A stretch of 47,819 nucleotides of DNA, taken from contig CAMYMF010000015.1 of NCBI GenBank assembly GCA_947259355.1, forward strand, positions 12,811 through 60,629. The letters run 5' to 3'. Below the pieces are notes generated by a model. The model did no database searches, had not been told where the DNA came from, and saw nothing but the letters and a program-made list of their open reading frames with translations. Shown here piece by piece: positions 9,764 to 45,818 of the stretch; position 1 is the stretch's first letter, and each line of letters opens with the position of its first letter. Made by a program: the position numbers and the translations under genes. The DNA is from an uncultured Nitrospirota bacterium (lineage in GTDB: Bacteria; CG2-30-53-67).

Positions 9764-12700
9764 ATGGCCGATGACCGCACGATTGAGAACGCTTCCACTT
9801 TCGTCGACACCGGCGCACCGGAAGGTGCCCGGGACCCTCGGGTGGCGGTGGGTGAAGCCCTCTTTGCATCGGGAAAACTGTCTGAAGCACGGCGGTTATT
9901 TCGCGAGCTTCAGTGCGAGCGCCCGGAGGACCCGGAGGTTCTGAACAATCTCGGCGTCATTGCCTGGGAGATGGGCGCGTGTCAGGAAGCTGTGCGTTAC
10001 TTTGAGAACTGCCTCGCGTGCCACCCCGACTATCCCGATGCCCAGGAGAATGTGCGGGCCCTGCAGGCACTCCTGGCGGCAGCCCCCCGTCCGGCTGAAG
10101 GAGGGGCCCAATGCGACAGCGACAAACCCGCCACCACCGAGCCGATCCTCATCGTCATGGAGGAGGGGATCGGCAACATGATCCTGCTCACACCGGCGAT
10201 CCGGGCGCTCAAGCAGTGCCGCCCGGATCTGGCCGTTCACGTCCTAGGCCGTTATCCCGCCCTGGAGATTCTGGAGGGCTGGGAACTGGTCGATCGCGTT
10301 CTCACCGGACCGGACGGCACGCGCTACGGCACCCTCTTCTACACCCTCTGGTCTTCGGGAACCCGGGAACGCCATGGAAGCGAATTGTCCGCGCACGCCC
10401 GGACGATCCGAACGCTTGAGTACAAGGACCCGGTCATCCACGAGTCGGAGCACTACATGGAGATCCCCCGCACCCTGGGCTATGTGGGCGAGACGCCGCC
10501 GCCCTACTGTCCGGTGGCCGATGCCGTGACATCGCTTCCCCCGGACAGACCGGTCGTTGCACTGGCCGATACCTACCGTCACGCCGGGTGGGAGCGAAAG
10601 AGCTGGCCTCATTACCAGACGCTGGCGCGCGAACTCATGGCCCGTGGGGTTGCGGTGGCCCTTTTGGGCGGCGAGGACGAAGCGGCCCGGTTTCGCCCCG
10701 AGGAGTGGCCCGACGGCGTGATCGATCTTCAGGGACACCACACCTTGGCCGAAACGGCGGCAATCCTCTCCCGCTGCTGCGCCGTCGTGGCCAACGACAG
10801 CGGTCCCGCCCACATGGCCGCCGCCCTGGGTGTCCCCACTTATGTGCTTTTCGGCGCCACCCGCCGGAGCAAGAACCGGCCCCTGGGACCTCGGGTCCAT
10901 CCCATCACCGCCGACGTGCCGTGCCGGCCGTGCCAGTACACCCCCTCCTGGTCGGACTGCAGCGACTGGCAGTGTATGCAGGAAATCTCCTCGGAGCGTG
11001 TGCTCGCGGCCCTGATCGAGGAGATCGGCGTACCGCCCGTCCGAACGGCAGACGTGCTCATCGTCGGCGTGCTGGACAATCCCACGTCCACCAACACCTT
11101 CATGCAAGCTGGGTTCGAGTCGCTGGGACTGAGCGTAGAGGCTTATAACTACCGCACCCGGGCGGCTGCGCTGGGTGGCCACGGGCATCTGCGGGAAGAC
11201 TTTGCCGAGTTTCTACGGGGCAAAACATTCGGCCTGATCCTCTTCAGCAAAGTCAACGGCATGGAGGCCGACACCCTCAAGGCCGCGCGGTCCCACGGCA
11301 GGACCTGGTACTGGTTCATGGACCATCTCGGCGCGGCTCGTGCCATGGGCGCGGACCGGCACGCCGCCGCCTGTGACTATGCCAGCGCCACCTCCCAGGA
11401 GGTGACCGAGTTCTTCCTGGGCACCAATCCTCTCACACTGCAGGTCATTGAGGGGTTCGACCCCTCCGTCCTTTACGCCGAGAAGCGCGAGAAGCGCCAT
11501 GATGTGGTCTTTATAGGCAACGCCACGGCGCAGCGGGTCGACCTGCTCCAGGCCATCCGCTCCACGGTACCGGTCACCCTCTTCGGCAACGGCTGGCCGG
11601 CCGAGTTCGAGGCACACCCGCCGGTCTTCAGCGAACAATACCGCCAGACCGTGGCCGAGTCCAGAATCGTTCTCAACTTGGTCCACTCCAATATCTTCTC
11701 CGACCGGGTGGTCCACACCCTGGCCTGCGGCGGATTTGTCCTCTCCCAGTACTGTCCCGACCTGGAACGGCATTTCGCCAAGGGCGTGCACCTCGACTGG
11801 TTCCGGGACACCGATGAATTGGCCGTCCTGGTTTCCCGTTATCTGCGCGACGACGCCGAGCGGGAGCGGATCGCCCGGTGCGGGCGGGCACGGGTGGCAA
11901 CCAAATATACCTGGGAGCGGATCTGTACGCGCGTGGCCGGCGCCGCCGGCGTCTCCGCCCAGACCGGACCCCGAAGCGCCGCGCCCGCAGCACCGCCCTG
12001 TGAAAGACCTGCAGCAGGCAAAGAGCAGATCCTGCTGGTCTCCTGGCACGGGCTGGGCGATCAGGTGATGCTGACCCCCGCGCTGCGTAAATTCAAAGCA
12101 GCTCTTCCCGAATCGGCGATAACCCTGCTCGGCCTCAAACGCTTCGGCCGCACTCTGACCGAGCTGCTGAGCGGTCTGCCCTTCCTGGACGAGGTGCTGC
12201 CCGTTCTGCCGGACGCGTGGAACGATTTTGACGATTACCCGACGGGGGTCCAGGCTGTCATGCGCGAAGCCCAGGCCTTCGCCAACGAAAACGATTTCGA
12301 CCGGGTGATCTTCCTGCCCACCCAGCGCAGGCCGGGGTACCGGCTCCACAAGATCTTCCGCTTCGCCGAGGAGCTGGGGGTTTCCTTCGATTCGCTGGAG
12401 GAACTGCAGACGGAGCTTGCGGTCCAGCCCGAGGCCCGTGAGCGGGTCGCGGCATTCGTCCGGGATTACAGCAAACCCCTCCTGGTGGTGCACGCCACCG
12501 CGGGCCACACGCCCAAATCACTTCCTGCCAAGGCCGTCGCCCAGCTCATGGCCCAGTATCCCGGCTACACCGTCTTCGAGTTCGGCCGGCACAGCACCAG
12601 CCGCTCCGTGCGTATCCCCGAAGACGACATGGAGTTCTCCAAGGCGCTCATCGAAAGGGCCGATATGGTGATTGCCATCGACTCCGTCGTCATGCACATG

Positions 12701-15049
12701 GCCGGCGCTTTCCGGCGGCCCTGTCTCGCCGTCTTTACCGCCACCCCGGTGCACCAGGCGGTGCCGCTGACCTATCGGGTCGATGTCATCGGCGTGGACA
12801 ATGCACAGACCGCGCTGTCGCGCTGGCCCGGCATGCGCGCCGAAATCCAGAAACGCTACCCCCGACGGCACCGGGACGGATTCGAGGAGCGGCACTATTT
12901 CGAGGGGGGCTCCGCGTGCTACCAGGGCTACTGGTGGGGCGAGCGGGGCGGCATGGGTGAGAACATCCACCACCGGATGCTCAAAGTAATGGCCACCTTC
13001 CCCGACATGTTCGCGGGGGCCCGCATCCTCGATGTGGGCTGTGCCGCGGGCTACGGGGTGAAGGTCCTGCGGGACTGCGGCTACGAGGCCTTCGGTTGTG
13101 ATCCGTCCCGCTGGATCATCGAGCGGGAAGAGACCCTCATGACCCCCTACAAGCAGTTCCTGAAAGTCGGCTCGGCCCAGTGTATCCCCTTCGACGGACC
13201 CTTCGACACGCTCATGGCCTTCACGGTGCTGGAGCATCTCGATGCCGGGCAATTTGACGCTTTCCTGAACGAAGTGCAACGCCTTTGCATCCGGCATCTT
13301 CTGATCAAGGTCCCCACCATCGATACGGCGGGCGCGCAGAACGACCCGACGCACATCCTGCTCAAATCGAGGCAGTGGTGGCACGACTCTCTGGCCGCCC
13401 GGGGGTTTCACTTTGCGGGCGAAGTGGCCGACCTCGGCCCGGCCATCTGGTGTTTTTCCACGTCGGCAGAAGCCCCTCCTGTCGGTTCACAGGGGTACTA
13501 CGAAAAATCCTATCACCGCTGGACGGCGTCCCCCGAATGGGATTCCTTCGACAAAGCCCTGGCCAAGGTAGAGCCGTACCGGGCCCGCTATCGAACGGTC
13601 TATCAGGAACTCACCCCATACCTCGATGAAACGGGAACGGTGCTCTTCTGCGGGGTGCACCAGGGCAAAGATGCGCACTGGTTTCAGGAAATGATGCCCC
13701 AATGGAAGATCCACGGCTTCGACTTCTCCCGGACGGTTCTCGCGTGGCTCCAGAGACACTATCCGGGAGACGCCACGTTCTTTCACGCCGATGCGAAGAC
13801 GATTCGAAGCGGCGAAGACAACCTTGCGGCCGCCTTCGACCTCATCGTGTCCATCGATTTCACCGAACACCTTCCCGCGGAAACCTGTGCCGCCTTCGCC
13901 TCGGAGACCTTCAGAGTAGCCCGACCGGGCGCGAGGCTCCTCGCCATGCAGGGCACCACAGCCCTGGCGGAGCACATCAACATCCTAAGCGAAGCAGCCT
14001 TCATTCAACTCTTCACACAACACGGCTGGCGCCTCGCGCAGAGACTTCCCTGCGAGCACTTTCTGTTCCGAAAACCATCCCGCGCCGACCGAGCGCCTGT
14101 GGGCGCACAACCGGCAAGGGGGGAAAAGCAGTCCGAGGCAGCCACGGCCCTCTTCGTGACCACCAGCAACGCTGTCTGCTTCGTCGATCCCGCCACCGGC
14201 AACCTAGTGAACCTGCTCCCCCGAGGTCCGCACCAGGGATTCTTCGGCATCGCCGCCGAGCAGGATAGCGGCACGATTTACGTCGCCGCCCGCTCGGGCA
14301 CCGGCACTCCCCGCGGGGCCAAATACAGCACCCAGGTCACCCTCTACCGGATCGATGCCGGCACACTGCAGGCCGAAAAAGTGATGGAGCTTCCCGACAT
14401 TCACGACGTCCACCAACTGGCGCTCTTCGATGGGCAGGTCTTCTTCTGTGACACCGGGCAGAACCGGATCGTCATCGCCGATCTCGAAGCGGGGCGGCTC
14501 ACCCGATCGATCCCCATCGGCCGGGTGCGGCGCGACCGCCATCATGTCAACGCCATCCACGTGGACAAGCAACGAATTCTCATTGTCCTGAACAATCGCG
14601 GCTTTCGCCCATCCGCGGTGCTCGAACTGCCGACGGAGGGTCTCCTTGGCACGCCCGACGAGCCCGACGGACTGGAGGTGGGCGTCATACACGAAATCCC
14701 CGGCCTCTTTCACGCCCACGACATGGAACCCTGGGAGAACGATTTTCTGATCTCAGCGTCCCACGACGGGCGGGTCTTCAGTTTCTCCAAACGGGCGCCC
14801 CTCTTTGCCGCCGACGGCTGGAGCCGCGGCCTCGCGGTCACCCATGAGGGGGTCTGGGTCGGCGCCAGCCCCCAGGCGGACCGGAGTCTGCGGCACTCGG
14901 CGGAGCTCTCGGCCACCCTCTCCCTCTTCGCCCACGGCACCTTCCCAAGACAGCGGACCATTGTCCTGCCGGGTAGCGGCCAGGTCCACGACCTGGTGAC
15001 GGTGTCGGTGAAACGCCCGCGGCTCGATCCATCGACCGAAAGGATGTGA
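9764..15049 (+). CDS. Giant multi-domain glycan-assembly protein (TPR-GT9-CgeB/DUF3880-GT9-MT-MT-propeller)
   Basis: This 1,761-residue single chain has: a TPR region (about 25-105); a heptosyltransferase-like GT9 domain (about 126-422, with NDSGPAHMAAA and a C-P-C...C...C cluster); a CgeB/DUF3880-like glycosyltransferase (about 429-723, with VIEGFDPSVLY and VHTLACGGFVLS); a second GT9 (about 753-1036, with WHGLGDQVMLTPALR and IDSVVMHMAG); a class I methyltransferase (about 1040-1238, ILDVGCAAGYG); a second, more divergent methyltransferase (about 1244-1440); and a beta-propeller-like C-terminus (about 1460-1761). There is no signal peptide, so it should act in the cytoplasm. The ATG at 9764 has GAGG five bases upstream. 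Position before fliC suggests flagellin O-glycan assembly (inference). Each domain is usually a separate protein. Confidence 0.85.
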   Translation: MADDRTIENASTFVDTGAPEGARDPRVAVGEALFASGKLSEARRLFRELQCERPEDPEVLNNLGVIAWEMGACQEAVRYFENCLACHPDYPDAQENVRALQALLAAAPRPAEGGAQCDSDKPATTEPILIVMEEGIGNMILLTPAIRALKQCRPDLAVHVLGRYPALEILEGWELVDRVLTGPDGTRYGTLFYTLWSSGTRERHGSELSAHARTIRTLEYKDPVIHESEHYMEIPRTLGYVGETPPPYCPVADAVTSLPPDRPVVALADTYRHAGWERKSWPHYQTLARELMARGVAVALLGGEDEAARFRPEEWPDGVIDLQGHHTLAETAAILSRCCAVVANDSGPAHMAAALGVPTYVLFGATRRSKNRPLGPRVHPITADVPCRPCQYTPSWSDCSDWQCMQEISSERVLAALIEEIGVPPVRTADVLIVGVLDNPTSTNTFMQAGFESLGLSVEAYNYRTRAAALGGHGHLREDFAEFLRGKTFGLILFSKVNGMEADTLKAARSHGRTWYWFMDHLGAARAMGADRHAAACDYASATSQEVTEFFLGTNPLTLQVIEGFDPSVLYAEKREKRHDVVFIGNATAQRVDLLQAIRSTVPVTLFGNGWPAEFEAHPPVFSEQYRQTVAESRIVLNLVHSNIFSDRVVHTLACGGFVLSQYCPDLERHFAKGVHLDWFRDTDELAVLVSRYLRDDAERERIARCGRARVATKYTWERICTRVAGAAGVSAQTGPRSAAPAAPPCERPAAGKEQILLVSWHGLGDQVMLTPALRKFKAALPESAITLLGLKRFGRTLTELLSGLPFLDEVLPVLPDAWNDFDDYPTGVQAVMREAQAFANENDFDRVIFLPTQRRPGYRLHKIFRFAEELGVSFDSLEELQTELAVQPEARERVAAFVRDYSKPLLVVHATAGHTPKSLPAKAVAQLMAQYPGYTVFEFGRHSTSRSVRIPEDDMEFSKALIERADMVIAIDSVVMHMAGAFRRPCLAVFTATPVHQAVPLTYRVDVIGVDNAQTALSRWPGMRAEIQKRYPRRHRDGFEERHYFEGGSACYQGYWWGERGGMGENIHHRMLKVMATFPDMFAGARILDVGCAAGYGVKVLRDCGYEAFGCDPSRWIIEREETLMTPYKQFLKVGSAQCIPFDGPFDTLMAFTVLEHLDAGQFDAFLNEVQRLCIRHLLIKVPTIDTAGAQNDPTHILLKSRQWWHDSLAARGFHFAGEVADLGPAIWCFSTSAEAPPVGSQGYYEKSYHRWTASPEWDSFDKALAKVEPYRARYRTVYQELTPYLDETGTVLFCGVHQGKDAHWFQEMMPQWKIHGFDFSRTVLAWLQRHYPGDATFFHADAKTIRSGEDNLAAAFDLIVSIDFTEHLPAETCAAFASETFRVARPGARLLAMQGTTALAEHINILSEAAFIQLFTQHGWRLAQRLPCEHFLFRKPSRADRAPVGAQPARGEKQSEAATALFVTTSNAVCFVDPATGNLVNLLPRGPHQGFFGIAAEQDSGTIYVAARSGTGTPRGAKYSTQVTLYRIDAGTLQAEKVMELPDIHDVHQLALFDGQVFFCDTGQNRIVIADLEAGRLTRSIPIGRVRRDRHHVNAIHVDKQRILIVLNNRGFRPSAVLELPTEGLLGTPDEPDGLEVGVIHEIPGLFHAHDMEPWENDFLISASHDGRVFSFSKRAPLFAADGWSRGLAVTHEGVWVGASPQADRSLRHSAELSATLSLFAHGTFPRQRTIVLPGSGQVHDLVTVSVKRPRLDPSTERM

Positions 15050-15054
15050 TCCTC

Positions 15055-18000
15055 ATGGCGCGAAAGAAGATCCCCCGGTCGAAAAGGCGCCGCCGCAGAA
15101 AGAGGTCGCCCGTCGAGCCGACTGTCAGCCTCTGCATGATCGTCAAAAACGAGGAGAGCAATCTTGCCGACTGCCTGGAGAGTGTCCGGGCCGCGGTCGA
15201 CGAGATCATCATCGTCGACACCGGATCCACCGATGGAACTATTGCGGTGGCGCGCACCTTCACGGACAAGGTCTTTGTCCACCCCTGGGAACACGACTTC
15301 AGCAAGTCCCGCAATCATTCCATCGGTTATGCAACGGGCAACTGGATCCTGCAGCTGGACGCCGACGAGAGATTCGCCCCCGGCGACGGGGCAAAGATCA
15401 AACCCTTCCTGCGGGGGCTGCCGCAGGAAACAGGGCACGTCTTCCTGCCCATCATTAATTACAGCGACACGGGCGGGGTCACGTCGGAGTTTCCCTTTCC
15501 CCGGCTGTTTCGCAATGGAATCGGCATCCGCTATGCCGGTCGGGTCCACAATCAGGTGCTCGTGCGGGGGGCGCCCACCCATCTTCCGCTGCCGATTCAC
15601 CACTACGGCTACGCTCTCTCTCCGGAGCGGCTGGCCGCCAAGTTTGAAAGGACGGTGACCCTGCTGAAAGAGCAGATCGAACAGGAGCCGCAGAATCCTT
15701 TTCATTACCACAACCTCTGCCTCTCCTATTCCATGGCCCGCCGGGATCGCGAGGCCATCCATTGGGGGGAGCGAGCGATCCGGCTCTGCCGGGAACAGGG
15801 GATCACGCCGCCCTTTCTTCTCTATGACCACTACATCGTTGCCGCCTCCTGCTATGCCCTCGAGGACCTGCAGCGGACCGAAGAAACCTGCCGGAAGGCA
15901 CTGGCCATCGACCCCGATCACCTCGACTCCCATTACCTGTTGGCTGCCCTGCACTGGCGGCGGGAGGACGCCAACGCTGCGCTCTCCGCTGCCCTGCGCT
16001 ACCTCCACCTCTACGGGCGGTACCGAAAGCGCGGGGTTCGCCGGACGCAAACCCTGGGAACGATCGGATACAAACGGAAGATCCAGCAGATCCTGGGAGA
16101 AATCTATTACCACCTCGGCGAAGCCGAAAAGGGAGCCGCTATTCTCACCGAGGCTGTGAAGGACTCGGGGGGGGACCCGACCTGCCTCCGGGAAATCGCA
16201 CTCCTGTACCAGAGCTGCGGGCAGCTCGAGCAGGCCGAGCGGCTTTACACAGAAGTCCTCCGGACGGACCCGCAAGACCCAGAGGTCCTGAGCGCGCTGG
16301 CCGTCCTGCGGGCCCGCACCGGGAGCATCGACGAAGCCATGGACCTCTTCGAACAGGCTGCGGCCCTGGAGCCGGGGCGCGAAAGCACCTTGTTGAGAAA
16401 GGGGGTGCTCCATCTTCAGAGAAAAGAGCCAGCCGACGCGGAAGAGATCTTCCGAAAGGTGCTCGTCCGCAATGCCGAACATCCCGCAGCGTTCACGAAT
16501 CTCGGCCTGGCCCTGGAGCAGCAGGGACGAGAGGAAGAGGCCGAACAGGCCTACGAACGGGCCCTGACGCTCAAACCGGACCACCCCGAAGCCCTGGCCA
16601 ACCTGGGGCACCTCCGGATGCGGGTTGGCCGCGAGGAAGCTGCCGAGCCGACCTTTCGCCGCGCGCTGGCCACCGGGCTCGACGGGCCGGACATATGCCT
16701 GTCCCTCTGCCGGATCTCCCTGCATCGGGGAAACGTCGATGGGCTGCTGGAAGGCCTGGGCCGGCTCTTGACGGACCTCGAGATTCCCAATCCGCCCGTT
16801 CTCGAAACCCGCGAGGCGCTGGCCGTGCTCTTTGCACAGATTGCACACCGTCTGGAATTACAGGGAAACCCTGTCTCCGCCCAACTGGCCCGGGCCTTGG
16901 CGGAGGAGCTCTCTGCCGAAGCACCACGGCACGACCCATCGAACATGGACACGCCCCTGGCGCCATCTCGTCTCCTCATTTCGCTCTGCATGATTGTGAA
17001 AGACGAAGCGGCCGTGCTGCGCCGCTGTTTGCAAAGCGTGCAGGGCGGCGTCGATGAGATGGTCATCGTCGACACCGGTTCCACCGATGAAACCGTGGCC
17101 ATCGCGCAGACGTTCACCGCCACCGTCCTGGAACATCCCTGGGAGGGGAGTTTCGCCAAAGCCCGAAATCAGGCCCTGCGGCATGTCACGGGCCAGTGGG
17201 TCCTGCAGCTCGATGCCGACGAAGAGATGCGCCGGGAAGACGCCCTGCGTCTCCGGGAGCTCATCGGCACCCTGGACGACGACGTCACCCACCTCTATGT
17301 CCGCCTCATCAATCTTGATCGCCAGGGATCGGTCCTGTCCCAGATCAACCTGCTGCGGATCTTCCGATACGACGGATCGCCCTGCTACATAGGAGACGTG
17401 CACAATCAGATTCGCATCGCCGGTCGCGGCGTCTACACCGACCTCACCGTTTACCACTACGGCTACGACCTCGACCCACAGCGTATGGCGGAGAAGTTTG
17501 AACGGACCGTCGCTCTCCTCCAAAAAGAGGTGGCCCGGGACCCGGAGAACCCGAACCCCCACCACAGCCTCTGCCAGAGCTATGCCAACGCCCGCATGAC
17601 CGAACAAGCGATCGTTGCGGGAGAGCGGACCCTGGAACTCTTCGCCCGAATTCCTTCCGACGGGGACCCGCGCGCAGCGGTCTATCTCAACACCTGCCAC
17701 CTGCTCTGCCTGGCCTATCTGGACGCGGGTGATTTTGTCCGGGCTCGCGACATCTGCCTGGAAGCCCTGCAGGTGGACGCCGACAATCCTGACACGCTCT
17801 TCGGACTGGCCTTTGCTTGTTATCGCTTGGGCAACTATCCCGGATGCATCGCCCATGGCGAGCAGGCGCTCCGACGTCTCAAGATCGTCGAGGAAGATCC
17901 GGCCCAAGCGGGCTCCGTGCCCGTGAACACCCTGGGAAAACAGCCCATGCTGGAGCTCACCGTCGGCTACGCCTACTGGGAAATGAATGAGCCTGAAAAG

Positions 18001-18156
18001 ATGCTCGACTACCTGGAGCAAGGGCTTGCCCGTGTGGGCGGCGCGACGGATTTTGCCGAGAAGATCTCCCTCTTTCTGCAGCAGAAGGTGATTCCCGCCG
18101 AGTCCTCCCTGACGGCCCCGGTCGCGGCGAGGGCGGGAAGTCTCTTAAATCACTGA
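15055..18156 (+). CDS. Duplicated GT2-TPR-GT2-TPR glycosyltransferase
   Basis: This 1,033-residue protein begins with an Arg/Lys-rich segment and then repeats one architecture twice. The first half has a GT2 domain (about 23-200; SLCMIVKNEE, IVDTGSTDGT, QLDADE near 100-105) and TPRs (about 205-600). The second has a GT2 (about 640-840; SLCMIVKDEA, IVDTGSTDET, QLDADEE) and TPRs (about 845-1033). The junction segments FERTVTLLKE and FERTVALLQK also match, so this is an internal tandem duplication. Both DxD-type metal sites are intact. The start ATG is five bases after the preceding stop. A GTG at 15046 would overlap it, and either implies coupling. Sequential addition of sugars to flagellin is the likely role (inference). 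Confidence 0.85.
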   Translation: MARKKIPRSKRRRRRKRSPVEPTVSLCMIVKNEESNLADCLESVRAAVDEIIIVDTGSTDGTIAVARTFTDKVFVHPWEHDFSKSRNHSIGYATGNWILQLDADERFAPGDGAKIKPFLRGLPQETGHVFLPIINYSDTGGVTSEFPFPRLFRNGIGIRYAGRVHNQVLVRGAPTHLPLPIHHYGYALSPERLAAKFERTVTLLKEQIEQEPQNPFHYHNLCLSYSMARRDREAIHWGERAIRLCREQGITPPFLLYDHYIVAASCYALEDLQRTEETCRKALAIDPDHLDSHYLLAALHWRREDANAALSAALRYLHLYGRYRKRGVRRTQTLGTIGYKRKIQQILGEIYYHLGEAEKGAAILTEAVKDSGGDPTCLREIALLYQSCGQLEQAERLYTEVLRTDPQDPEVLSALAVLRARTGSIDEAMDLFEQAAALEPGRESTLLRKGVLHLQRKEPADAEEIFRKVLVRNAEHPAAFTNLGLALEQQGREEEAEQAYERALTLKPDHPEALANLGHLRMRVGREEAAEPTFRRALATGLDGPDICLSLCRISLHRGNVDGLLEGLGRLLTDLEIPNPPVLETREALAVLFAQIAHRLELQGNPVSAQLARALAEELSAEAPRHDPSNMDTPLAPSRLLISLCMIVKDEAAVLRRCLQSVQGGVDEMVIVDTGSTDETVAIAQTFTATVLEHPWEGSFAKARNQALRHVTGQWVLQLDADEEMRREDALRLRELIGTLDDDVTHLYVRLINLDRQGSVLSQINLLRIFRYDGSPCYIGDVHNQIRIAGRGVYTDLTVYHYGYDLDPQRMAEKFERTVALLQKEVARDPENPNPHHSLCQSYANARMTEQAIVAGERTLELFARIPSDGDPRAAVYLNTCHLLCLAYLDAGDFVRARDICLEALQVDADNPDTLFGLAFACYRLGNYPGCIAHGEQALRRLKIVEEDPAQAGSVPVNTLGKQPMLELTVGYAYWEMNEPEKMLDYLEQGLARVGGATDFAEKISLFLQQKVIPAESSLTAPVAARAGSLLNH

Positions 18157-18415: not shown

Positions 18416-19555
18416 ATGGCACTTCGAGTCCAGAACAACGTCACCGCACTGAACACCCAGAGAAACCTCTCCCATACGGACAGACTGCTCTCCCGAACCC
18501 TGGAGCGACTCTCCTCGGGTTTCCGGGTCAACCGGGCCGCAGACGACGCTGCGAACCTTGCCGTGTCCCAGGGACTGCGGGCCGACCTGGCCAGCTACAA
18601 AGTGGCTTCCCGAAACACGTCCGAAGCCAACTCCCTGCTGCAGGTGGCGGAGGGAGCCATGGACCAGATCGGCAACATGCTGACCCGCCTCAAAGAACTG
18701 GCCACCCAGGCCGCGTCCGCCAACACCAGTGGTGCCAACCGGATCAAGCTGAACAGTGAGGCGACCCAGCTGGCCAACGAAGTCTCCCGTATCGCGAACG
18801 TCACCAACTACGCCGGCACCAACGTCATCGACGGCACCTTCACCGGCGCGTCGACGGTGGTGGCGGCCGACCTGACCACCATCAACGCCATCGACAACGT
18901 CTATGACTTCGACGTCTCCGAAGCCGCCGGCGGAAGTTACACCATTGCCTATGCCGCCGGGACCGATGAGATGACACTGACCAAGGACGGTGTCTCCCAG
19001 ACGCTTACCGTCACAGCAGGGGCCACCGTCGATTTCACGGAGTTCGACATCAGCTTCAAGACAACCGAAGCGGCCGTCGTCGACACCGTCGGTGCCGCCT
19101 TTACCGCCATGTCGGATGTGGACGTCACTGCGGCCAACGGCGCAATCTTTCAGGTGGGCGCGGGCAACAGCTCCAACAACCAGATCCGCTTCTCCATCAC
19201 CGACGTCGACAGCGACGCCCTCGGCACGACGGCGCTGGCCGGCGGTATCGGGTCCATTGACATCTCCACCGCGGCCGGCGCACAAACGGCCATGGACGTG
19301 GTGGACGAGGCCATCGATGATGTGGCCCTTGCTCGCGGCCAGATCGGCGCCGTTCAGAACCGGCTGACCTACGCGGCCGCCAACCTGGCGACCACCATTG
19401 AAAACGTGACCGCCGCCGACTCGGTCATCCGCGATGCGGACATGGCGGCTGAAATGACGGAGTTTACCAAACACCAGATCCTTCTCCAGGCCGGTACGGC
19501 CATGCTGGCGCAGGCCAATGCCGCGCCGCAGGTGGTCCTCTCACTGCTGTCGTAA
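18416..19555 (+). CDS. fliC: Flagellin FliC
   Basis: This 379-residue filament subunit has conserved N-terminal D0/D1 helices (residues 1-140; NNVTALNTQRNL, RLSSGFRVNRAADDAA) and C-terminal helices (about 290-379; ARGQIGAVQNRL, AEMTEFTKHQIL). Between them is a variable, Thr/Ser/Ala-rich surface domain (about 140-290). The terminal sequence VVLSLLS is a slight variant of the usual SLL ending. A GGAGG site precedes ATG 18416. The exposed Ser/Thr-rich centre is the probable target of the neighbouring glycosyltransferases. Expression should be late, from the FliA promoter. Confidence 0.97.
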   Translation: MALRVQNNVTALNTQRNLSHTDRLLSRTLERLSSGFRVNRAADDAANLAVSQGLRADLASYKVASRNTSEANSLLQVAEGAMDQIGNMLTRLKELATQAASANTSGANRIKLNSEATQLANEVSRIANVTNYAGTNVIDGTFTGASTVVAADLTTINAIDNVYDFDVSEAAGGSYTIAYAAGTDEMTLTKDGVSQTLTVTAGATVDFTEFDISFKTTEAAVVDTVGAAFTAMSDVDVTAANGAIFQVGAGNSSNNQIRFSITDVDSDALGTTALAGGIGSIDISTAAGAQTAMDVVDEAIDDVALARGQIGAVQNRLTYAAANLATTIENVTAADSVIRDADMAAEMTEFTKHQILLQAGTAMLAQANAAPQVVLSLLS

Positions 19556-20094: not shown

Positions 20095-23000
20095 GTGGCC
20101 AGCACCAACTCCATCAGCGGGCTGTCGTCCGGCCTCGATTGGCAGGGCATCATCGATCAGATCTACGAGATCGAACGGCGCCCCATCACCCTGCTGGAAG
20201 ACCGGGTCCAGGATTACGAGGACAAACTCGACGCCTGGCGGGACGTCAACACCCGGCTGCTCACGCTGAAGAGCTCCGCGAGCTCTCTCAACACGGTGTC
20301 GGCCTTCAGTCTTTTCGCCGCATCGACCAGTTCTTCTTCGACAACCAGCGCGGACAAAATTCTCAGTGCCACCGTCGGGGCCGATGCCGCCACCGGCAGC
20401 TATGCCGTGGACGTGACCCAGCTCGCCCGGGCCCAGAAACTCTCGTCGGCGAGCGTTTCAGACAAGACGGCTGCCCTCGGCACCAGCGGCGACATTCTCA
20501 TCAACGGCCAGGTCGCCCACATCGAAACGTCCGACAGCCTCGACACCATCCGGGACAAGATCAACGCGGTCAACAGCGGGACGAGCGCCTCCCGGGTGAC
20601 GGCGACGCTTCTGCAGAACGGGGCTTCCGACTACCGGCTGATCCTCACCAGCGACGTCGAAGGTGTCGAGGGGATCACCCTGCTCGACGCGAACACCTCG
20701 AACGTGCTCCAAACGCTGGGGTTCATCGACGCGACCGTAGACATCCGAGAGCGCACCAGCGATGGCTTCCTGTCCGCGGCATTCACCAACAGCACCACCG
20801 CCGCCGGCACCCTCCTCGGCCTGAGCACCCCGCCGGGGGCCACCACTGTCTCCATCGGCGGTGAGAATGTCGACATCGATCTCTCCACCGAATCGCTGGC
20901 CGACATCGCCGCCAACATCGATGCCCTCACCGGCGTTTCGGCATCGGTGCTCAGCACCACCACCGCCGGGGTCACCACCTACCAGATCGACATCAGCGGC
21001 ACCACCGACTTCTCGGACACCGACAATATCCTGCAGACACTCGGTTTCGTGGCCGGCCAGCACAGCGCCACCACCGAAGTCCATACGGGCAGCCTGGCTA
21101 CCACCGACGGCGATGCCGTCACCCTCATGACCGCAGCGACCCTCATGGCTGACTTGTGGACCGGCGGCGCCAGCGCCGGCGTTCAGACAAACGACACGAT
21201 CACCATCAGCGGTACCCAGGGCGATGGAGCGGCTGTCAGCAGTTTCGCTTACACCGTGCAGGCCGGCGACACGGTCCAGGACTTGCTGGACCGGATCAAC
21301 AACGCCACCGACGGTTTCGGCGCAGGGAGCCGGCCCGCCACCGCGAGCGTCGTGGACGGCAAGATCGTTATCACCGACGGCACCGCGGGGGACAGCCTGC
21401 TCTCTCTCACCCTTACGGCGAACAACGAGGGGGGCGGCACCCTCGATTTCGGCACCATCGCCGCCACCACCGAGGGACGGGAGATGGAGCTGATAGCCGG
21501 ACAGGATGCGCGCCTCACGGTGGACGGCATCTCGGTCACCAGCAGCACCAACACCGTCACCCAGGTCATGGAGGGGGTCACCCTCAATCTGCTGAGCGTG
21601 GAAGCGGGAACCACGGTGACCGTTTCCGTCGAGCGGGACTTGGAGACCATTCGGGACACCGTTCAGGATTTCATCAGCAATTACAACGACATCATCTCTT
21701 ATATCGGCGAACAGTTCAATTACGACGAGGAGAAGGAAGAGACGGGCGGCGTGCTTTTCGGAGACCAGACCCTGGTGTCCGTGCAGTCCGACCTGCGCAC
21801 CCTCATCGTCAACACGGTCTGGGGCACCGAGAATGGGCTCAACTCCCTGGGGCTCGTCGGTATCAATGTGGACGACGACGGCCTGCTCTCCATGGATGAA
21901 ACGACCTTCATGGGGTATCTGAACACCAATTTCGACGATGTGCGCAACCTCTTCGTGGGAACGGGCACGTCCACCAACAGCAACATCCAGTACATCGGTC
22001 ATACCAAGGAGACGCAAAAGGGCGAATACAGCGTCGACATCACGCAGGTCGCCACCAAGGGAACGGTCAGCGGTACGGTGGACCTCTCCGGCGGCATCGG
22101 TGCCGACAACACCCTCACCGTCACCGAGGGAACGCGGGAGGCCGTGGTGACCATGACCACCGGTGAGGATATCGACACCATCGTCAACGCCATCAACTCG
22201 GAATTGTCCACCGAATACACGGAGGTGCGAAAAAGCACGGCCACCAACACCGCCGGGGGCTCGGCCATTGTCAACAGCACGGCATGGAGCGCCATCGACG
22301 GCGTCACGGCCGCCGACGGCGATATCATCACCTTCAGCGGCACCACCCGTGCGGGACAGGCCATCAGCGGATCGTACACCCTGGACCTCGCGGGCGACAC
22401 CGTGGAAGACCTGCTGGCCGCCATCGAAGATGCCTACAGCAAAGAGATCTATGCCACCCTCGATACCGACGGCCGGCTGGTGCTCACCGAGAAGAGTGCG
22501 GGGGACAGCAGCCTCACCTTTTCCATCGACACCACCGACGTCACCGGCCTTTCCTTCGGCAACTTTGAAGACACCGGTCTCAACACGGACGGGCGCTTCG
22601 CCATGGCCGTGACGGCCTCCAAGGATGCCAACAACTATCTCGTACTGACCCATCAGCACTACGGCACTGAGCGCAGTTTCACCATTTCCCAGACGGCACC
22701 GGCCGAAACGGGCCTCACCGATGGTACCTACGCGGGGCTCGATGTGGCGGGGACCATCAACGGTGAGGCGGCCACCGGCAGCGGCCAGCTCCTCACCGGC
22801 GACACGGGGACGGCCAATGTGAACGGACTCGCCCTGCAGTACACGGGAACCGCGACCGGTTCCGTGGGCACCCTGAAGCTGACCCTCGGGGTGGCCGAGC
22901 AGATGAACACCCAGCTCTACTACATCACCGACAGCAATGACGGCTATGTGGGATTCAAAACGGACTCTATCCGCAACTACGTGGACGACCTGGAAGAGGA

Positions 23001-23145
23001 CATCGAATTCAAGGACGCCCAACTGGCCAAGCGGATGGAGATCCTCCGGGCGAAATTCGTCAGCATGGAAATCGCTCTCAACGCGATGGCCAGCATCAGT
23101 GGATGGCTGAACAGCCAGACCCAGTCCCTGAACCGACTCTTGTAA
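20095..23145 (+). CDS. fliD: Filament cap protein FliD, unusually long
   Basis: This 1,016-residue flagellar hook-associated protein 2 has the FliD N-terminal domain (about 5-100; SGLSSGLDWQGIIDQI) and FliD C-terminal elements (about 470-620; ARLTVDGISV, VQDFISNYNDIISYI). A terminal cap helix (KRMEILRAKFVSMEIALN) and a Leu-rich end follow. Usual lengths are roughly 450-700 residues. The extra length comes from Thr/Ser/Gly-rich beta modules at about 345-455 and about 640-960. Two of these are related (DTITISGT...GDTVQDLLDRI and DIITFSGT...GDTVEDLLAAI). The start is GTG at 20095 with GAGGTGAGG upstream. The filament tip may carry glycans or act as an adhesin (inference). Confidence 0.93.
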   Translation: MASTNSISGLSSGLDWQGIIDQIYEIERRPITLLEDRVQDYEDKLDAWRDVNTRLLTLKSSASSLNTVSAFSLFAASTSSSSTTSADKILSATVGADAATGSYAVDVTQLARAQKLSSASVSDKTAALGTSGDILINGQVAHIETSDSLDTIRDKINAVNSGTSASRVTATLLQNGASDYRLILTSDVEGVEGITLLDANTSNVLQTLGFIDATVDIRERTSDGFLSAAFTNSTTAAGTLLGLSTPPGATTVSIGGENVDIDLSTESLADIAANIDALTGVSASVLSTTTAGVTTYQIDISGTTDFSDTDNILQTLGFVAGQHSATTEVHTGSLATTDGDAVTLMTAATLMADLWTGGASAGVQTNDTITISGTQGDGAAVSSFAYTVQAGDTVQDLLDRINNATDGFGAGSRPATASVVDGKIVITDGTAGDSLLSLTLTANNEGGGTLDFGTIAATTEGREMELIAGQDARLTVDGISVTSSTNTVTQVMEGVTLNLLSVEAGTTVTVSVERDLETIRDTVQDFISNYNDIISYIGEQFNYDEEKEETGGVLFGDQTLVSVQSDLRTLIVNTVWGTENGLNSLGLVGINVDDDGLLSMDETTFMGYLNTNFDDVRNLFVGTGTSTNSNIQYIGHTKETQKGEYSVDITQVATKGTVSGTVDLSGGIGADNTLTVTEGTREAVVTMTTGEDIDTIVNAINSELSTEYTEVRKSTATNTAGGSAIVNSTAWSAIDGVTAADGDIITFSGTTRAGQAISGSYTLDLAGDTVEDLLAAIEDAYSKEIYATLDTDGRLVLTEKSAGDSSLTFSIDTTDVTGLSFGNFEDTGLNTDGRFAMAVTASKDANNYLVLTHQHYGTERSFTISQTAPAETGLTDGTYAGLDVAGTINGEAATGSGQLLTGDTGTANVNGLALQYTGTATGSVGTLKLTLGVAEQMNTQLYYITDSNDGYVGFKTDSIRNYVDDLEEDIEFKDAQLAKRMEILRAKFVSMEIALNAMASISGWLNSQTQSLNRLL

Positions 23146-24056: not shown

Positions 24057-25703
24057 TCACAATGCCACCGCCTGGAGACTCGCTTCCAGGTCCGCCAGCA
24101 GCGGTTGCATCTCCATCGACAGAACATCCTGAAGGGCCGCCAGATCCATCGCGGTGACGGCACGCTCGATCCGCTGCAGCAGCCGCAGCAGGTCCGTCCG
24201 AAAAACAGCCATGCCCGCCACCGCCTCCGGCGCCACGTCTGCCGCCTCCTGGAAACGCCCCAGAGCATCGAGAACTTGGACCCAGAGGTCGAAGATCGGC
24301 ACGATCGCGACGAAGCCCGTCTCCTTTTCACCCACCACAAATCCCGCCAAAGCGGCCTCAACGTGCCCCCCGATCTTCCCGAGGAGTCCCCGAAGCCGCA
24401 GACGGGCGTTGTGCGACGCCGATGCCATCGGCGCCACAGGCCCGCGTCGTACCACCGACGCTGCGCGCAGGGGCGGGATCTCCCGCTGCAGATCGTAGAG
24501 TTTGAGATCACCGGTGATTTCAGACTCACCGGTATGGAGCAGACGCATCCCCACCAGGGGAGCTGCATCCCGAAGACGGGCCACGGCGGCCGCGTCTCCC
24601 GCAGCCAGCGCCGCCTGCAGGTCGACGCCCGCCGTCAGCACCTCCGGTGCGAGCACCCGCCGACAAGCCATGCCCGAGGTACAGCGGTTCGGGTCGTCGC
24701 ACGGCGCGCAGGGCAGATCGCCGTAGAGAACAAGATGCCCGGGCCCGTAGGGCGCGGTTTCGTAGGGATAGGTCATGCCGTAGGAGGCGCAGAGGGTGCG
24801 GGTGCCGACGGCGGCGGCCACATGCACCGTGCCGGTGTCCCCCGTGATCAGCAGATCACACAGCCCGAGGAACCCGCCCAGCTCCTCCAGCGTCGTCTCC
24901 CCCATGAGGTTGAGGATGGCGCCCGGGCCGACCCCCAGCCGGCCGGTGATCTCCTCTCCCAGGGCGCGCTCCGACGGGCTTCCGAACAAGAGGACCCGTC
25001 CCCGCCGTGCTTCCACGAGATGATCGACCAGCGCTGCCAACCCGGCGCTGCCGAGTTTCTTGAACCCCCGGGACGCCCCCGGCTGTATCCCATAGCAGGG
25101 ACCATTCGGTCCCCATCCCTGCTCCCGCAGCCGCTGCTCACAGGCGGCCGTGACGTGCGGCCGAACCGGAAAGACCAGTCCCCGTAACGACGGGGAGACC
25201 CCGGCCACCGCCATGGAGAGATCGACGAGATTTTTCAGCGCGGGGTTGCGCCCGAACTGCCGTGTCTGCTCCACCACCCGGGCCGTCACCGGATCGCCGT
25301 AGCAGAACCGGCCGTCGGCGCCCACGGTCTTTCCCCGGACTGCGCCGGCGCCCGCCAGTGAGCTCAGCACCGCTTCGAAGTCGGTGAACTGACGGTTGAT
25401 GATCCGATCAAAGCGCGACCCCCGCAGGCGGCGCAGCAGCTCGCGAAGTTCCCGGTAAGCCGCCCAGGAGAACTGCGCATCGTTTCGGATCGCCTCGGCC
25501 AGTCGAACGCGGGGAAAGGCGATCACTTCATCGAGGTCCGGATTGCGCGCAAGCACCTCGGCAAAGGTTTCCGCCACCAGAACTGCCAGATGGGCATCGG
25601 GATATCTCTCCCGCAATCCCCGAATCATGGGGGTCACCTGCAAGATATCCCCCATCCGGTGGGTGCGGATCACGAGAATTCTTTTCACTGCGTTGTCGGC
25701 CAC
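24057..25703 (-). CDS. GT9 heptosyltransferase-like protein with helical C-terminal extension
   Basis: This 548-residue protein has a GT9 domain over roughly the first 360 residues: ILVIRTHRMGDILQVTP near the start, a central donor-binding region with IQPGASRGFKKL, and GDTGTVHVAAAVGT. A Cys-containing stretch (PCAPCDDPNRCTSGMAC) follows, as in many GT9 enzymes. The last 180 residues are helical with no recognised family. It starts at GTG 25703, nine bases after the maf-like gene. A second GTG at 25688 would begin right at KRILVIRT and is nearly as likely. It converges on the flgN-like gene. Flagellin or surface-glycan modification is inferred from context. Confidence 0.8.
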   Translation of the reverse strand: MADNAVKRILVIRTHRMGDILQVTPMIRGLRERYPDAHLAVLVAETFAEVLARNPDLDEVIAFPRVRLAEAIRNDAQFSWAAYRELRELLRRLRGSRFDRIINRQFTDFEAVLSSLAGAGAVRGKTVGADGRFCYGDPVTARVVEQTRQFGRNPALKNLVDLSMAVAGVSPSLRGLVFPVRPHVTAACEQRLREQGWGPNGPCYGIQPGASRGFKKLGSAGLAALVDHLVEARRGRVLLFGSPSERALGEEITGRLGVGPGAILNLMGETTLEELGGFLGLCDLLITGDTGTVHVAAAVGTRTLCASYGMTYPYETAPYGPGHLVLYGDLPCAPCDDPNRCTSGMACRRVLAPEVLTAGVDLQAALAAGDAAAVARLRDAAPLVGMRLLHTGESEITGDLKLYDLQREIPPLRAASVVRRGPVAPMASASHNARLRLRGLLGKIGGHVEAALAGFVVGEKETGFVAIVPIFDLWVQVLDALGRFQEAADVAPEAVAGMAVFRTDLLRLLQRIERAVTAMDLAALQDVLSMEMQPLLADLEASLQAVAL

Positions 25704-25711
25704 AGCCTCTC

Positions 25712-26449
25712 TCAATCCCCATCGTGCCGCAGGGCGTCCATCAGATGCAAGACGTCCCGGGCCTCGTGAAGCGCGTTGCCGCCGCGGGGCAGTCGGGCCC
25801 GCAGCGTGTCGAGACGAAGGGGGGCACCAGAAAAGTTTGCATCCACGAAGGAGGCCAGCGCTGGATCGTGCAGTCGGCACTCGGCATAATCACGGCACCC
25901 CACCACAGCCTGGTATGCTGCGCGATAGTATGCCGGTGCGAGCTCCGCGGCCGGCAGGTGCCGGAGGACGGCCAGCTGCGACACGATCTCCGCCCCACCG
26001 TACCGATCCAGATGCTCCGCCAGCGCCTCCGGCCCGTCGCCGAGCCGGAGGGTGAGCCCCGGTCGCCCCAAGAGCCCATCCAGGGCGGTGCAGGCCAGGG
26101 CCATGCGCAGCACAACGGGATCCGCTTCCACCAGCAGGACCGGTTCCCCCACCGGCCAGCTCTCGAGTGCCGCCTGGACATGGTAGAAGAGCCCGCAGCC
26201 GAGCACCGCAAGGAGCCGATGCTGCCTCGGCAGCGCGGCGGCGATTCTCTGGGCTTCCCCCAGCGGGTCGAGCGGGCTGTGCAGATGAATCGATCGACCC
26301 TCCGGCGTCGTGACCTTCAGGGTCGGCACGCCCGCGGGTGTTGGAACCAGCTGGTGCGACGGCGCCATCGGCGCGTTGGCAACGCTTTCATAGACGTCGG
26401 GGAATCTCTGTTTCAAGACATCCATGTTGCGGCTCGTCTGCCGGTCCAT
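25712..26449 (-). CDS. Maf N-terminal-domain protein lacking the catalytic part
   Basis: This 245-residue protein resembles only the N-terminal portion of motility-associated factor (Maf) glycosyltransferases: an initial NMDVLKQRFPDVYESV helix, then TTPEGRSIHLHSPLDP, LLAVLGCGLFYHV and VLLVEADPVVLRMA. Full Maf proteins continue into a DUF115 sugar-transfer domain that is absent here. It starts at ATG 26449 after GGGAGG. It is followed at once by the GT9 gene in the same operon, so the GT9 may supply transfer activity (inference). It could also be a decayed Maf. Confidence 0.7.
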   Translation of the reverse strand: MDRQTSRNMDVLKQRFPDVYESVANAPMAPSHQLVPTPAGVPTLKVTTPEGRSIHLHSPLDPLGEAQRIAAALPRQHRLLAVLGCGLFYHVQAALESWPVGEPVLLVEADPVVLRMALACTALDGLLGRPGLTLRLGDGPEALAEHLDRYGGAEIVSQLAVLRHLPAAELAPAYYRAAYQAVVGCRDYAECRLHDPALASFVDANFSGAPLRLDTLRARLPRGGNALHEARDVLHLMDALRHDGD

Positions 26450-41127: not shown

Positions 41128-41335
41128 GACTGTCCTCTGTCTTTCTGTCTTCCGTCCGAAGCCTGCCCCGCGAGAGGCGGAGCCTCTATCGGGGTCTTCC
41201 GTCTTCTGATCTTTCCGTCCTCCGTCCTCGGTCTTTCTGTCTTCCGATCTTTCCGTCCTCCGTCCTCTGTCTTTCTGTCTTCCGATCTTTCCGTCCTCCG
41301 TCCTCCGTGTTCCGCCCACTGTCTTCAGCCATCTA
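41128..41335 (+). repeat. Pyrimidine-rich heptad repeat tract 1
   Basis: The tract is built from degenerate seven-base units of the form CYGYCYT (TCCGTCCTC, TCTGTCCTC). A higher-order unit of about 38 bases repeats three times (41194-41230, 41231-41268, 41269-41306). A hairpin at 41166-41194 (CCCCG and AGAGGC arms) interrupts it. It ends about 30 bases before the promoter of the MNT/HepT pair. Confidence 0.75.
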
Positions 41336-41756: not shown

Positions 41757-42075
41757 CTATCTCCGGCACATTTTGGACGAAACCAACTTTCTAATCACGC
41801 AGACGGGCGCCTTGAGCCGCGAGACTTTCCTGAAGGATGAGACGACTAAACGGGCCTTCGTCCGGAGCCTCGAAATCATCGGCGAGGCAGCCAAGAAAGT
41901 CCCGCCCGAGCTACGGGACCGTTACCCCGACGTGCAATAGCGAGCGATTGCCGGGATGCGGGACCGCCTTATCCACGACTATTTCGGCGTCGACTACGAC
42001 ATCGTATGGGATGTTGCCGTCAATAAGATCCCCGATCTTCAGCGACGAATCGAGCAGATCCTTCGCCGTGAATAA
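41737..42075 (+). pseudogene. hepT: HepT (HEPN) toxin gene interrupted by an amber codon
   Basis: The frame encodes a 112-residue HepT-like protein, but codon 68 is TAG (41938-41940), where family members have Trp (PDVQ-W-RAIAGMRD). After the stop the same frame continues normally to TAA 42073-42075 and includes the catalytic RX4HXY motif (R75-DRLI-H80-D-Y82, reading through). As written the product is a 67-residue fragment without the active site. An in-frame ATG at 41956 could restart just before the motif. A single TGG-to-TAG change explains everything, so inactivation is recent, or it is a sequencing error. Confidence 0.85.
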
Positions 42076-42095
42076 CCCGCACAAGTCGCGACGGA

Positions 42096-42394
42096 CCGCC
42101 CACTGTCGTTCCGTCCTCTGGTCTGTCTGCGGCCTTCAGTCACTTGAAGTTTCCGTCCTCTGTCCTCCGTCACTCCGTCCTCCGTCACTCTGTCCTCTAC
42201 ATTCTTTCTGCCCACCGCCCACTGCCCACTGTCGATCTGTCGTCAGCCTTAAGCCTGTCGCCCTTTCCGTCCTCTGTCCTCTGGGTTCTTTCTGCCCACT
42301 GCCTACTGCCCACTGGTTCTTCACCGCCCACTGTCGTTCCGTCCTCTGTTACGCCGTCTTCTGGCGTCTCACTGTCCTCTGTCCTCCGTCCTCC
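42096..42394 (+). repeat. Pyrimidine-rich heptad repeat tract 2
   Basis: About 300 bases of degenerate TCCGTCCTCTGTC and CCGCCCACTGCCCAC units, on the same strand as the other tracts, with short non-repeat inserts. No gene is present. It stops three bases before the -35 box of the next unit. Confidence 0.75.
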
Positions 42395-42397
42395 GAC

Positions 42398-42426
42398 TTG
42401 ACCCTACCTCGCGGGCATGGTTATAT
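42398..42426 (+). promoter_or_regulatory. Promoter of the nucleotidyltransferase pair
   Basis: TTGACC (42398-42403), exactly 17 bases, TTATAT (42421-42426). The start codon is 29 bases on. Confidence 0.6.
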
Positions 42427-42454
42427 TGAGGGCGTCATACAGGTGGAGCTGAAC

Positions 42455-42955
42455 ATGAATATCTTCAAACGACTCTTTGCAGCGCTGCAGCAAGAAGGTG
42501 TCGAGTATCTGGTGGCAGGCGGTGTCGCGGTGAACCTCTACGGCATTGAGCGCGCCACCGGGGATATCGACATCGTGCTAAACCTGGACGAAGAGAATAT
42601 GAACCGCTTCATTGCAGCCGCCGGGAAGCTGGGGTTGGCGCCCAAGGAGCCGGTGGCGCTGGAGACGCTGCGCGACCCGGTGCAGCGAAAACAATGGGTC
42701 GAGAAAAAGCATCAGTCCGTCTTCTCTCTGCTTGACCCGAAGGCGCCGTTCTTTCAGCTCAACGTCCTCATTCAGACACCGTTCCCCTTTGCAGAAGTCT
42801 ACGCAGAACGAGAGACCATGCGATACGGGGAGGTCGACATTCCCGTCATTCCCATCCCGGCCTTGATCAAGATGAAGACTGCGTCCGACAGGCCGCAGGA
42901 CAAATCGGATGTCTTTTATCTGAAGAAGATCCTCAAGGACTGGCAGCATGAGTGA
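42455..42955 (+). CDS. Nucleotidyltransferase-fold protein (DUF6036/AbiEii-like)
   Basis: This 166-residue protein begins with a GVEYLVAGGVAVNLYG helix-turn and ERATGDIDIVLNL. This is the G(G/S)xA...DxD core of nucleotidyltransferases found in toxin-antitoxin modules. A third Asp is plausible in KAPFFQLNVLI. The C-terminal KMKTASDRPQDKSDVFYL stretch is typical of the group (K...R.KD..D). ATG 42455 is preceded by GGTGGAG. It overlaps the following small gene by eight bases. Whether it is toxin or antitoxin cannot be told from sequence. Confidence 0.8.
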   Translation: MNIFKRLFAALQQEGVEYLVAGGVAVNLYGIERATGDIDIVLNLDEENMNRFIAAAGKLGLAPKEPVALETLRDPVQRKQWVEKKHQSVFSLLDPKAPFFQLNVLIQTPFPFAEVYAERETMRYGEVDIPVIPIPALIKMKTASDRPQDKSDVFYLKKILKDWQHE

Positions 42956-44215: not shown

Positions 44216-44229
44216 CACGAAGGGGTCTT

Positions 44230-44386
44230 CCGCCCTCCGCCCTCCGCCCTCCGCCCTCCGTCCTCCGTCTTCTGTCTTCCGCCCTCCGTCCTCCGTCTTC
44301 CGCCCTCCGCCCACTGCCCTCCGTCCTCCGTCTTCTGTCCTCTGTCCTCCGTCCTCCGTCTTCCGCCCACCGCCCACTGCCCACCG
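44230..44386 (+). repeat. Heptanucleotide tandem repeat, tract 3 (22 units in phase)
   Basis: Twenty-two consecutive seven-base units run from 44230 to 44383 with no insertion or deletion, plus a partial unit (CCG). The consensus is C-Y-G-Y-C-Y-(T/A). The commonest units are CCGCCCT, CCGTCCT, CCGTCTT, CTGTCCT and CCGCCCA. The first four are identical. Frames through it encode Gly-Gly-Arg-Arg-Thr-Glu-Asp-like peptide repeats that I do not regard as genes. Confidence 0.95.
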
Positions 44387-44462: not shown

Positions 44463-45518
44463 ATGGAAAAACTGCCCCTTGAAACACAGACCCTCTACGC
44501 CGAATTACTGGAGCAGCTGACTGCTCTTGAAACACGTCGCTCCATCGGACAGGCCTCCGGGTGTTTCACGACAAAGACCGTGAAAGGCAGGACCTATTAC
44601 TATTTCCAATACTCCGACCCGGGCGGCAAACCGCGGCAGAAGTATGTCGGCAAGAAAGCCCCGGTGCTTGACAAGATCGTCAGTCGGTACGAACAAGAGC
44701 GGGCCGCCCTTGCGGGCGACCAGGAAAGCGTCCGGCGGCTCACCGCTCTGCTCCGAGCCGGAGGCGCATCCGTTACGGAGGCAGCCCCATCCCGCGTTTT
44801 GAAGGCGCTCGCCGAGAGCGGGGTCTTCCACGCCGGCGGTGTGCTGATCGGCACCCAGGCCTTCACCATCCTCGGCAATCTGCTGGGGGTTCGATGGAAA
44901 AGCAGCTCCCTGAAGACCCATGACATCGACATCGCCGGCGAATTGCGCATCGATCTTGCCGTCCCGGAAGTCCCCTCCGATCTGCCGAAGGCTCTGGAGA
45001 CCTTGGCCATGGGGTTTCTCCCGGTGCCCCCGCTCAATCCGAAGCATCCATCGACCTCTTTCAAAGTCCGGGGACAGCCGCTGCGGGTCGATCTGCTGAC
45101 TCCGGGCAAGACCGGGCGGGAAAAAGCACCGGTGTTCATCCGGCGCTTCAACGCCGCAGCCCAGCCGTTGCCCTTCCTAGATTATCTAATCGAGGAGTAC
45201 GACCGGGGCGCCGTCGTCAACGGCGGCGGAGTCTTGGTCAATGTGCCGACGCCGGCCCGTTTCGCCTTCCACAAACTAATCACGGCTCAGCGCCGCCCCG
45301 CCGCGATGCACACCAAACGGGATAAGGATTTGAATCAGACGCTGCAGCTCGTCTCGGTCCTGACGGAAGAGCGGCCCGGTGACCTGCTCCTCGCCTGGGA
45401 CGCACTGCGGTCCCGAGGCCCCACCTGGGTCAAACGCGCCAAAACGGGGCTCGCCATTCTCAAGAAGCTCGATCCCGAGGAACACGGGAAGATGGCCACC
45501 CTGTTGAAACTCTCATAA
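44463..45518 (+). CDS. GSU2403-like nucleotidyltransferase-fold protein
   Basis: This 351-residue protein fits the GSU2403 / NTP_transf_8 family. An N-terminal region (about 1-90) contains GRTYYYFQYSDPGGKPRQKYVG. It is followed by a nucleotidyltransferase-like core GTQAFTILGNLLGV and KTHDIDIAG (about 125-160), and a helical C-terminal half. Many members sit near toxin-antitoxin or defence genes, and a biochemical role is not established to my knowledge. It stands alone with its own promoter between two repeat tracts. Confidence 0.75.
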   Translation: MEKLPLETQTLYAELLEQLTALETRRSIGQASGCFTTKTVKGRTYYYFQYSDPGGKPRQKYVGKKAPVLDKIVSRYEQERAALAGDQESVRRLTALLRAGGASVTEAAPSRVLKALAESGVFHAGGVLIGTQAFTILGNLLGVRWKSSSLKTHDIDIAGELRIDLAVPEVPSDLPKALETLAMGFLPVPPLNPKHPSTSFKVRGQPLRVDLLTPGKTGREKAPVFIRRFNAAAQPLPFLDYLIEEYDRGAVVNGGGVLVNVPTPARFAFHKLITAQRRPAAMHTKRDKDLNQTLQLVSVLTEERPGDLLLAWDALRSRGPTWVKRAKTGLAILKKLDPEEHGKMATLLKLS

Positions 45519-45569: not shown

Positions 45570-45690
45570 AACCTTCTTCAGCCTTCCGTCTTTACCCTCT
45601 TTCCCATTTCCTATTTCCCATTTGCCGTTTTCTTCCGTCTTCCGCCCACCGCCCACTGCCCACCGCCCACTGCCCACTGCCCACCGGATT
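45570..45690 (+). repeat. Heptad repeat tract 4, potential G-quadruplex on minus strand
   Basis: A pyrimidine-rich lead-in (45570-45634) is followed by in-phase heptads from 45635 to 45686: one CCGTCTT and six of CCGCCCA or CTGCCCA. On the minus strand this gives six GGG runs spaced by four bases. It ends ten bases before the -35 of the integrase promoter. Confidence 0.85.
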
Positions 45691-45794: not shown

Positions 45795-45818
45795 CCATCA
45801 TCAATCCAATTAAAAACG

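Follow-up and report, generated by a model that had tools for sequence, protein, structure and literature searches.

A gene beside flagellin in an uncultured Nitrospirota bacterium raises the question of what a single chain of 1761 residues, containing several glycosyltransferase and methyltransferase domains, does for the flagellum. The gene lies in a 47,819-nucleotide stretch of DNA (the window) and occupies one uninterrupted frame at 9764-15049. An earlier sequence-only reading had described its product as a single-chain glycan-assembly line composed of a TPR region, two GT9 domains, a CgeB/DUF3880-like glycosyltransferase, two methyltransferases and a beta-propeller. Segment-by-segment Pfam scanning, used for the domain assignment, recovered the first six modules in the order TPR-GT9-CgeB-GT9-MT-MT, including both GT9 and both methyltransferase domains, while the propeller was recognized by AlphaFold2 modelling and structure comparison.

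9764..15049, + strand: whole gene, 1761 aa, TPR-GT9-CgeB-GT9-MT-MT-propeller (open reading frame and domain calls, G001 homologue, dN/dS)
9839..10045, + strand: TPR region, residues 26-94, proposed flagellin dock (TPR_14, E 3.7e-9; docking by analogy with FlmG, PMC7591256)
10139..11038, + strand: GT9 domain 1, residues 126-425 (Pfam GT9, E 3.4e-23)
11039..11953, + strand: CgeB-type glycosyltransferase, residues 426-730 (Glyco_trans_1_2, E 8.5e-29)
12020..12865, + strand: GT9 domain 2, residues 753-1034, with GLGD (Pfam GT9, E 2.3e-9, and structural matches)
12866..13483, + strand: methyltransferase 1, residues 1035-1240 (Methyltransf_23, E 2.2e-12)
13484..14059, + strand: methyltransferase 2, residues 1241-1432, with divergent motif I (Methyltransf_25, E 6.8e-10)
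14138..15013, + strand: six-bladed beta-propeller, residues 1459-1750 (AlphaFold2 fold and structure comparison)

The window genome is a 94-contig draft, so an artefact of assembly or annotation joining separate genes was considered. However, the independently assembled genome of a member of the same genus (G001) carries the same domain order in one continuous frame at 78% identity. The dN/dS values between the two proteins were 0.13-0.24 in every domain, but rose to 0.69 and 0.49 in two of the linkers between domains, while a third linker was saturated at silent sites, indicating that each domain is kept and that the linkers are real domain borders. Since an independent assembly has the same frame, the gene order is conserved and purifying selection acts throughout, a fusion of separate genes is effectively refuted and its probability is negligible. 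An alternative in-frame ATG is present at 9608, upstream of the 9764 start, but is disfavoured, as the extra residues have no similarity to the sequence upstream of the MGNDR start of the G001 homologue.

GT9 domain 1 carries the C-lobe donor motif of the family, D-S/T-G-x-x-H, as DSGPAH, but lacks the N-lobe catalytic Asp: GIGNM replaces the expected GxGD, and Asn138 occupies the position of WaaC Asp13 in 12/12 members. The GIGNM surroundings of Asn138 are invariant among the 12 relatives, indicating that the Asn is a subfamily trait rather than decay, and the donor-site motif is likewise intact and invariant. Judged from these motifs, GT9 domain 1 may rely on a different base or lack catalytic activity. 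A four-Cys motif, C-x2-C-x8-C-x4-C, follows the donor motif at residues 387-404 (10922-10975) and is invariant in all 12 relatives. GT9 domain 2 scored 37.4 bits (cut-off 22), with the sequence evidence mainly over the C-lobe; the top structural matches of its model, which has a GT-B fold but only moderate confidence, were the GT9 enzymes 3tov, 1psw and WaaC. This domain keeps the Asp but has a degenerate donor motif, DSVVMH. The two GT9 domains share 39% identity over 59 residues (E 2e-8), so that an origin by duplication is possible but would be old.

The CgeB-type label given by the sequence-only reading was retained, whereas DUF3880 itself gave no match in the window protein in the Pfam scan, although it matches KSB1 relatives. 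In the AlphaFold2 model of CgeB plus GT9 domain 2, the CgeB half was poor (pLDDT mostly <55), so no fold is claimed and the CgeB assignment rests on sequence. The CgeB domain has a His at the position of a Glu in the KSB1 relatives G387 and G460. Both methyltransferase domains match class I SAM-dependent profiles, with motif I intact in domain 1 and divergent in domain 2. A tandem duplication as the origin of this pair was unsupported, the two domains barely aligning with each other.

The Asn in GT9 domain 1, the His in CgeB, the DSVVMH motif and the divergent motif I all favour an only partly catalytic chain, in which at least one of GT9 domain 1, CgeB and methyltransferase 2 would be a scaffold or acceptor-binding domain and the product a mono- or disaccharide. 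The strong purifying selection on all domains and the invariant donor-site motif of GT9 domain 1 argue against it. We regard partial catalysis as a serious possibility, though one that falls short of an even chance, and it is compatible with flagellin as the substrate.

The genes downstream supported the flagellin neighbourhood that had been pointed out from the sequence:

15046..18156, + strand: GT2-TPR-GT2-TPR protein, 1036 aa, overlapping the 9764-15049 gene by 4 bases
18416..19555, + strand: flagellin, the probable substrate, one gene downstream of the end of the 9764-15049 gene
20095..23145, + strand: FliD, 1016 aa (neighbourhood annotation)
24057..25880, - strand: second GT9 protein, 607 aa, with GMGD (Pfam)

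As the first four bases of the GT2-TPR gene are the last four of the 9764-15049 gene, the two genes probably form one operon. The flagellin has a central region (residues 140-292) with 23.5% Ser/Thr. The gene order mqnC-PNP-clpC-M48-GGDEF-HDOD-[GT genes]-fliC-fliD-fliS is common to the window genome (G000) and G003, a member of the same family, while G001 keeps the upstream half of it on a contig that ends just downstream of the gene. In G005, a congener of G003, the clpC-to-fliC slot is filled by other large multi-domain glycosyltransferases. The slot proteins of G003 (L039 4497-11897, 2466 aa) and G005 (L040 5392-11139, - strand, 1915 aa) consist of GT2, GT4-type and TPR units, and their sizes suggest that this family commonly has glycosyltransferases of very great length. 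The window FliD is unusually long, and those of G003 and G005 are equally long at about 70% identity. The 607-aa GT9 protein is encoded on the other strand, immediately after fliD/fliS, and has a long C-terminal extension without Pfam matches. Elsewhere in the window, degenerate heptamer arrays of the TCCGTCC/CCGCCCA type (41194-41314, 42152-42197, 44229-44386 and 45642-45686) recur around three genes, for an AbiEii-like protein (41837-42955), for NTP_transf_8 (44463-45518) and for a tyrosine recombinase (45786-46805), and the region may be mobile.

The G003 relative, encoded in the same clpC-to-fliC slot, shares 57% identity with the window protein from its TPR region through its second GT9 domain, while its remainder is a sulfotransferase-like domain. 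In G427, of the KSB1 phylum, residues 30-1014 of the window protein align, and the tail carries CxxxCxxC with a radical SAM score at the Pfam threshold (E 1e-6 for the tail alone). Scores of the tails against each other were no better than those of shuffled sequence. Other KSB1 members have the order TPR-GT9-CgeB-CgeB, and among the compared relatives only one lacks a TPR region. By these alignments, TPR-GT9-CgeB-GT9 is a portable conserved core, and the tail is proposed to be an exchangeable finishing cassette, with two methyltransferases and the propeller here, a sulfotransferase in G003 and a radical-SAM-like domain in G427. A profile search of 386 genomes sampled across the domain gave no core relatives outside the window's family at E 1e-40. 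Two kinds of matches were rejected as core relatives: a 35% match in G127, a GT9 protein of the ordinary GxGD type, and those in G100 and G367, which are stand-alone CgeB proteins. The G100 gene (L044 1495-2480) lies between a GT4-like gene and, by eye, a GmhB-like heptose phosphatase gene.

The flagellar linkage extends to the second phylum. The G427 gene follows flgK, flgL, fliW and csrA, and the GT9 module is beside flagellar genes (flgK/flgL/fliW or csrA) in 8/9 KSB1 loci. Flagellin was present in 9/9 KSB1 carriers of the GT9 module and in 24/73 non-carriers (Fisher p 1.3e-4, a value that ignores the shared ancestry of the genomes); the location directly beside flagellar genes carries more weight as an argument. 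The exception is G442 (L069 2907-6272, - strand), whose GT9-CgeB protein without TPR is encoded among sugar genes on a 12.9-kb contig that carries no flagellar genes. The G442 locus favours a different target, in that the glycan would be destined for LPS, exopolysaccharide or a different surface protein, with flagellin adjacent since surface-glycan genes cluster there. This explanation is also in line with GT9 being the LPS heptosyltransferase family, with stand-alone CgeB relatives encoded next to a further glycosyltransferase and a GmhB-like phosphatase (the latter by eye), and with the presence in 7 relatives of the ADP-heptose gene hldE, whose role there may be in LPS. However, flagellar genes adjoin the loci in both phyla, and do so in G003 too, which argues against another target. 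So do G002 and G004, family members in which neither a flagellin nor a relative of the window protein was detected. A target other than flagellin is therefore considered unlikely.

The propeller was assigned by fold only, as Pfam, NCBIfam and PDB sequence searches returned nothing significant for its family, and the DUF4915 and TIGR03032 propeller profiles gave no match. The AlphaFold2 model, built from a three-sequence alignment, is all-beta (pLDDT 83.6, pTM 0.84) and matches the LDLR/nidogen six-bladed YWTD propellers with Z about 25-27 over about 250 residues. Conserved His and Asp are found where the predicted inner strands begin (HDVH, HHxN, HxHD and VHD), and 9/14 aligned His are invariant (p 0.02, from three sequences only), which hints at a ligand-binding or active site. 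Fusion of the propeller to the TPR-GT9-CgeB-GT9 core was found only in the window's genus. A stand-alone relative of 40% identity in G013 (L018 6311-7183, - strand), with weak DUF4915 similarity (16 bits against a cut-off of 35), is encoded between a zinc carboxypeptidase gene and a 3-keto-disaccharide hydrolase gene; scanning of these two neighbours detected no glycan or flagellar family, and no further relatives were gained from 4 searched genomes of the same phylum.

The sequence-only reading had assigned the docking of flagellin to the propeller, a common protein-binding fold. This assignment was not sustained, as the flagellar linkage of TPR-GT9-CgeB(-GT9) persists in the sulfotransferase and radical-SAM architectures without a propeller. 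The neighbours of the G013 relative also speak against it, and the invariant His fit a ligand or active site better, so that docking by the propeller appears quite improbable. In FlmG of Caulobacter, the TPR domain and not the glycosyltransferase domain binds flagellin (PMC7591256). Given this precedent, and since nearly all relatives keep a TPR region but not the propeller, docking would more likely lie with the TPR region.

Comparison with FlmG further showed a shared N-terminal TPR region joined to a GT-B glycosyltransferase and encoded near flagellin, with a cytoplasmic location and flagellin as the substrate, both presumed for the window protein; FlmG has one glycosyltransferase domain with a pseudaminic acid donor (PMC7591256), whereas the window protein has three glycosyltransferase domains, all from different families than that of FlmG, together with two methyltransferases and a propeller. 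TibC, a WaaC-like heptosyltransferase that modifies protein, and the BAHT autotransporter heptosyltransferases resemble the window protein in the WaaC-like domain and a four-Cys motif (PMC4358343). However, the Cys of the TibC iron finger are at residues 339, 342, 358 and 370, a spacing different from C-x2-C-x8-C-x4-C, and TibC/BAHT have an N-terminal beta-barrel and an Asp base in place of the TPR region and Asn (PMC4358343). WsaE of Geobacillus (PMC2943079) and the chlorovirus A064R (PMC7019647) join two glycosyltransferases and a capping methyltransferase in one chain and methylate the terminal sugar, as might the window protein, but their targets are S-layer or capsid glycans, and TPR, GT9, CgeB and propeller are absent from their descriptions (PMC2943079, PMC7019647).

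The statement that such activities are usually encoded by separate genes was only partly right. GT41- and GT2-methyltransferase fusion proteins are described from enterobacterial flagellin islands (PMC4875605), and PA1091/FgtA joins a glycosyltransferase with a phosphotransferase (PMC11833859). Like the window protein, these join a flagellin-locus glycosyltransferase to another activity in one chain, but they have fewer domains and other glycosyltransferase families, and a core with exchangeable tails does not appear in the passages on them (PMC4875605, PMC11833859). With FlmG, the joining of glycosyltransferases to methyltransferase, phosphotransferase or TPR domains at flagellin loci is already known. 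What is new are the particular glycosyltransferase families, the chain length, the propeller, and a single core that carries three unrelated tails in two phyla; searches of the open-access literature for CgeB with flagellin and for multidomain flagellin enzymes turned up no account of this domain order.

Taken together, domain content and gene context suggest that the window protein is probably a soluble, cytoplasmic, multi-step flagellin glycosylation enzyme. The N-terminal TPR region would hold unexported flagellin, and the GT9, CgeB-type and GT9 domains would add two or three sugars to Ser/Thr of its central region. As a first guess from GT9 family membership, the donor for the GT9 domains would be ADP-heptose-like, though a search of the window genome, 90% complete, did not find hldE, which counts against this. 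The two methyltransferases would then O-methylate the outer sugar or sugars, acting last as in WsaE and A064R, and the propeller would bind or further modify the finished glycan. The highest 19-residue hydropathy of the chain is 1.58, indicating no membrane segment, which fits modification of flagellin in the cytoplasm before export. Initiation could fall to the GT2-TPR neighbour. That methylation comes after sugar transfer, as had been suggested from the domain order, is plausible by analogy; however, domain order need not be reaction order, and the wording of an assembly line exceeds what the order on the chain supports. More tentatively, and with less than even probability by a clear step, the fixed TPR-GT-GT-GT core might set the sugar sequence on flagellin, while the swappable C-terminal cassette, carrying methylation with propeller, sulfation or radical chemistry, might set the cap.

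The window protein therefore represents an unusually large and well-conserved member of a known functional class, from lineages known here only from draft genomes. If the flagellin assignment is true, one polypeptide does the binding, several sugar transfers and the capping, tasks that a flagellin island usually divides among a number of genes; GT9 enzymes are extended from LPS and autotransporters to flagellin, and the question arises how a GT9 domain functions when Asn replaces the catalytic Asp. Likewise, the family would offer a natural system for asking whether domain order sets the glycan sequence and whether a tail swap changes the cap. Should the core indeed set the sugars and the cassette the cap, the surface chemistry of the flagellum would change by swapping the tail of one protein.
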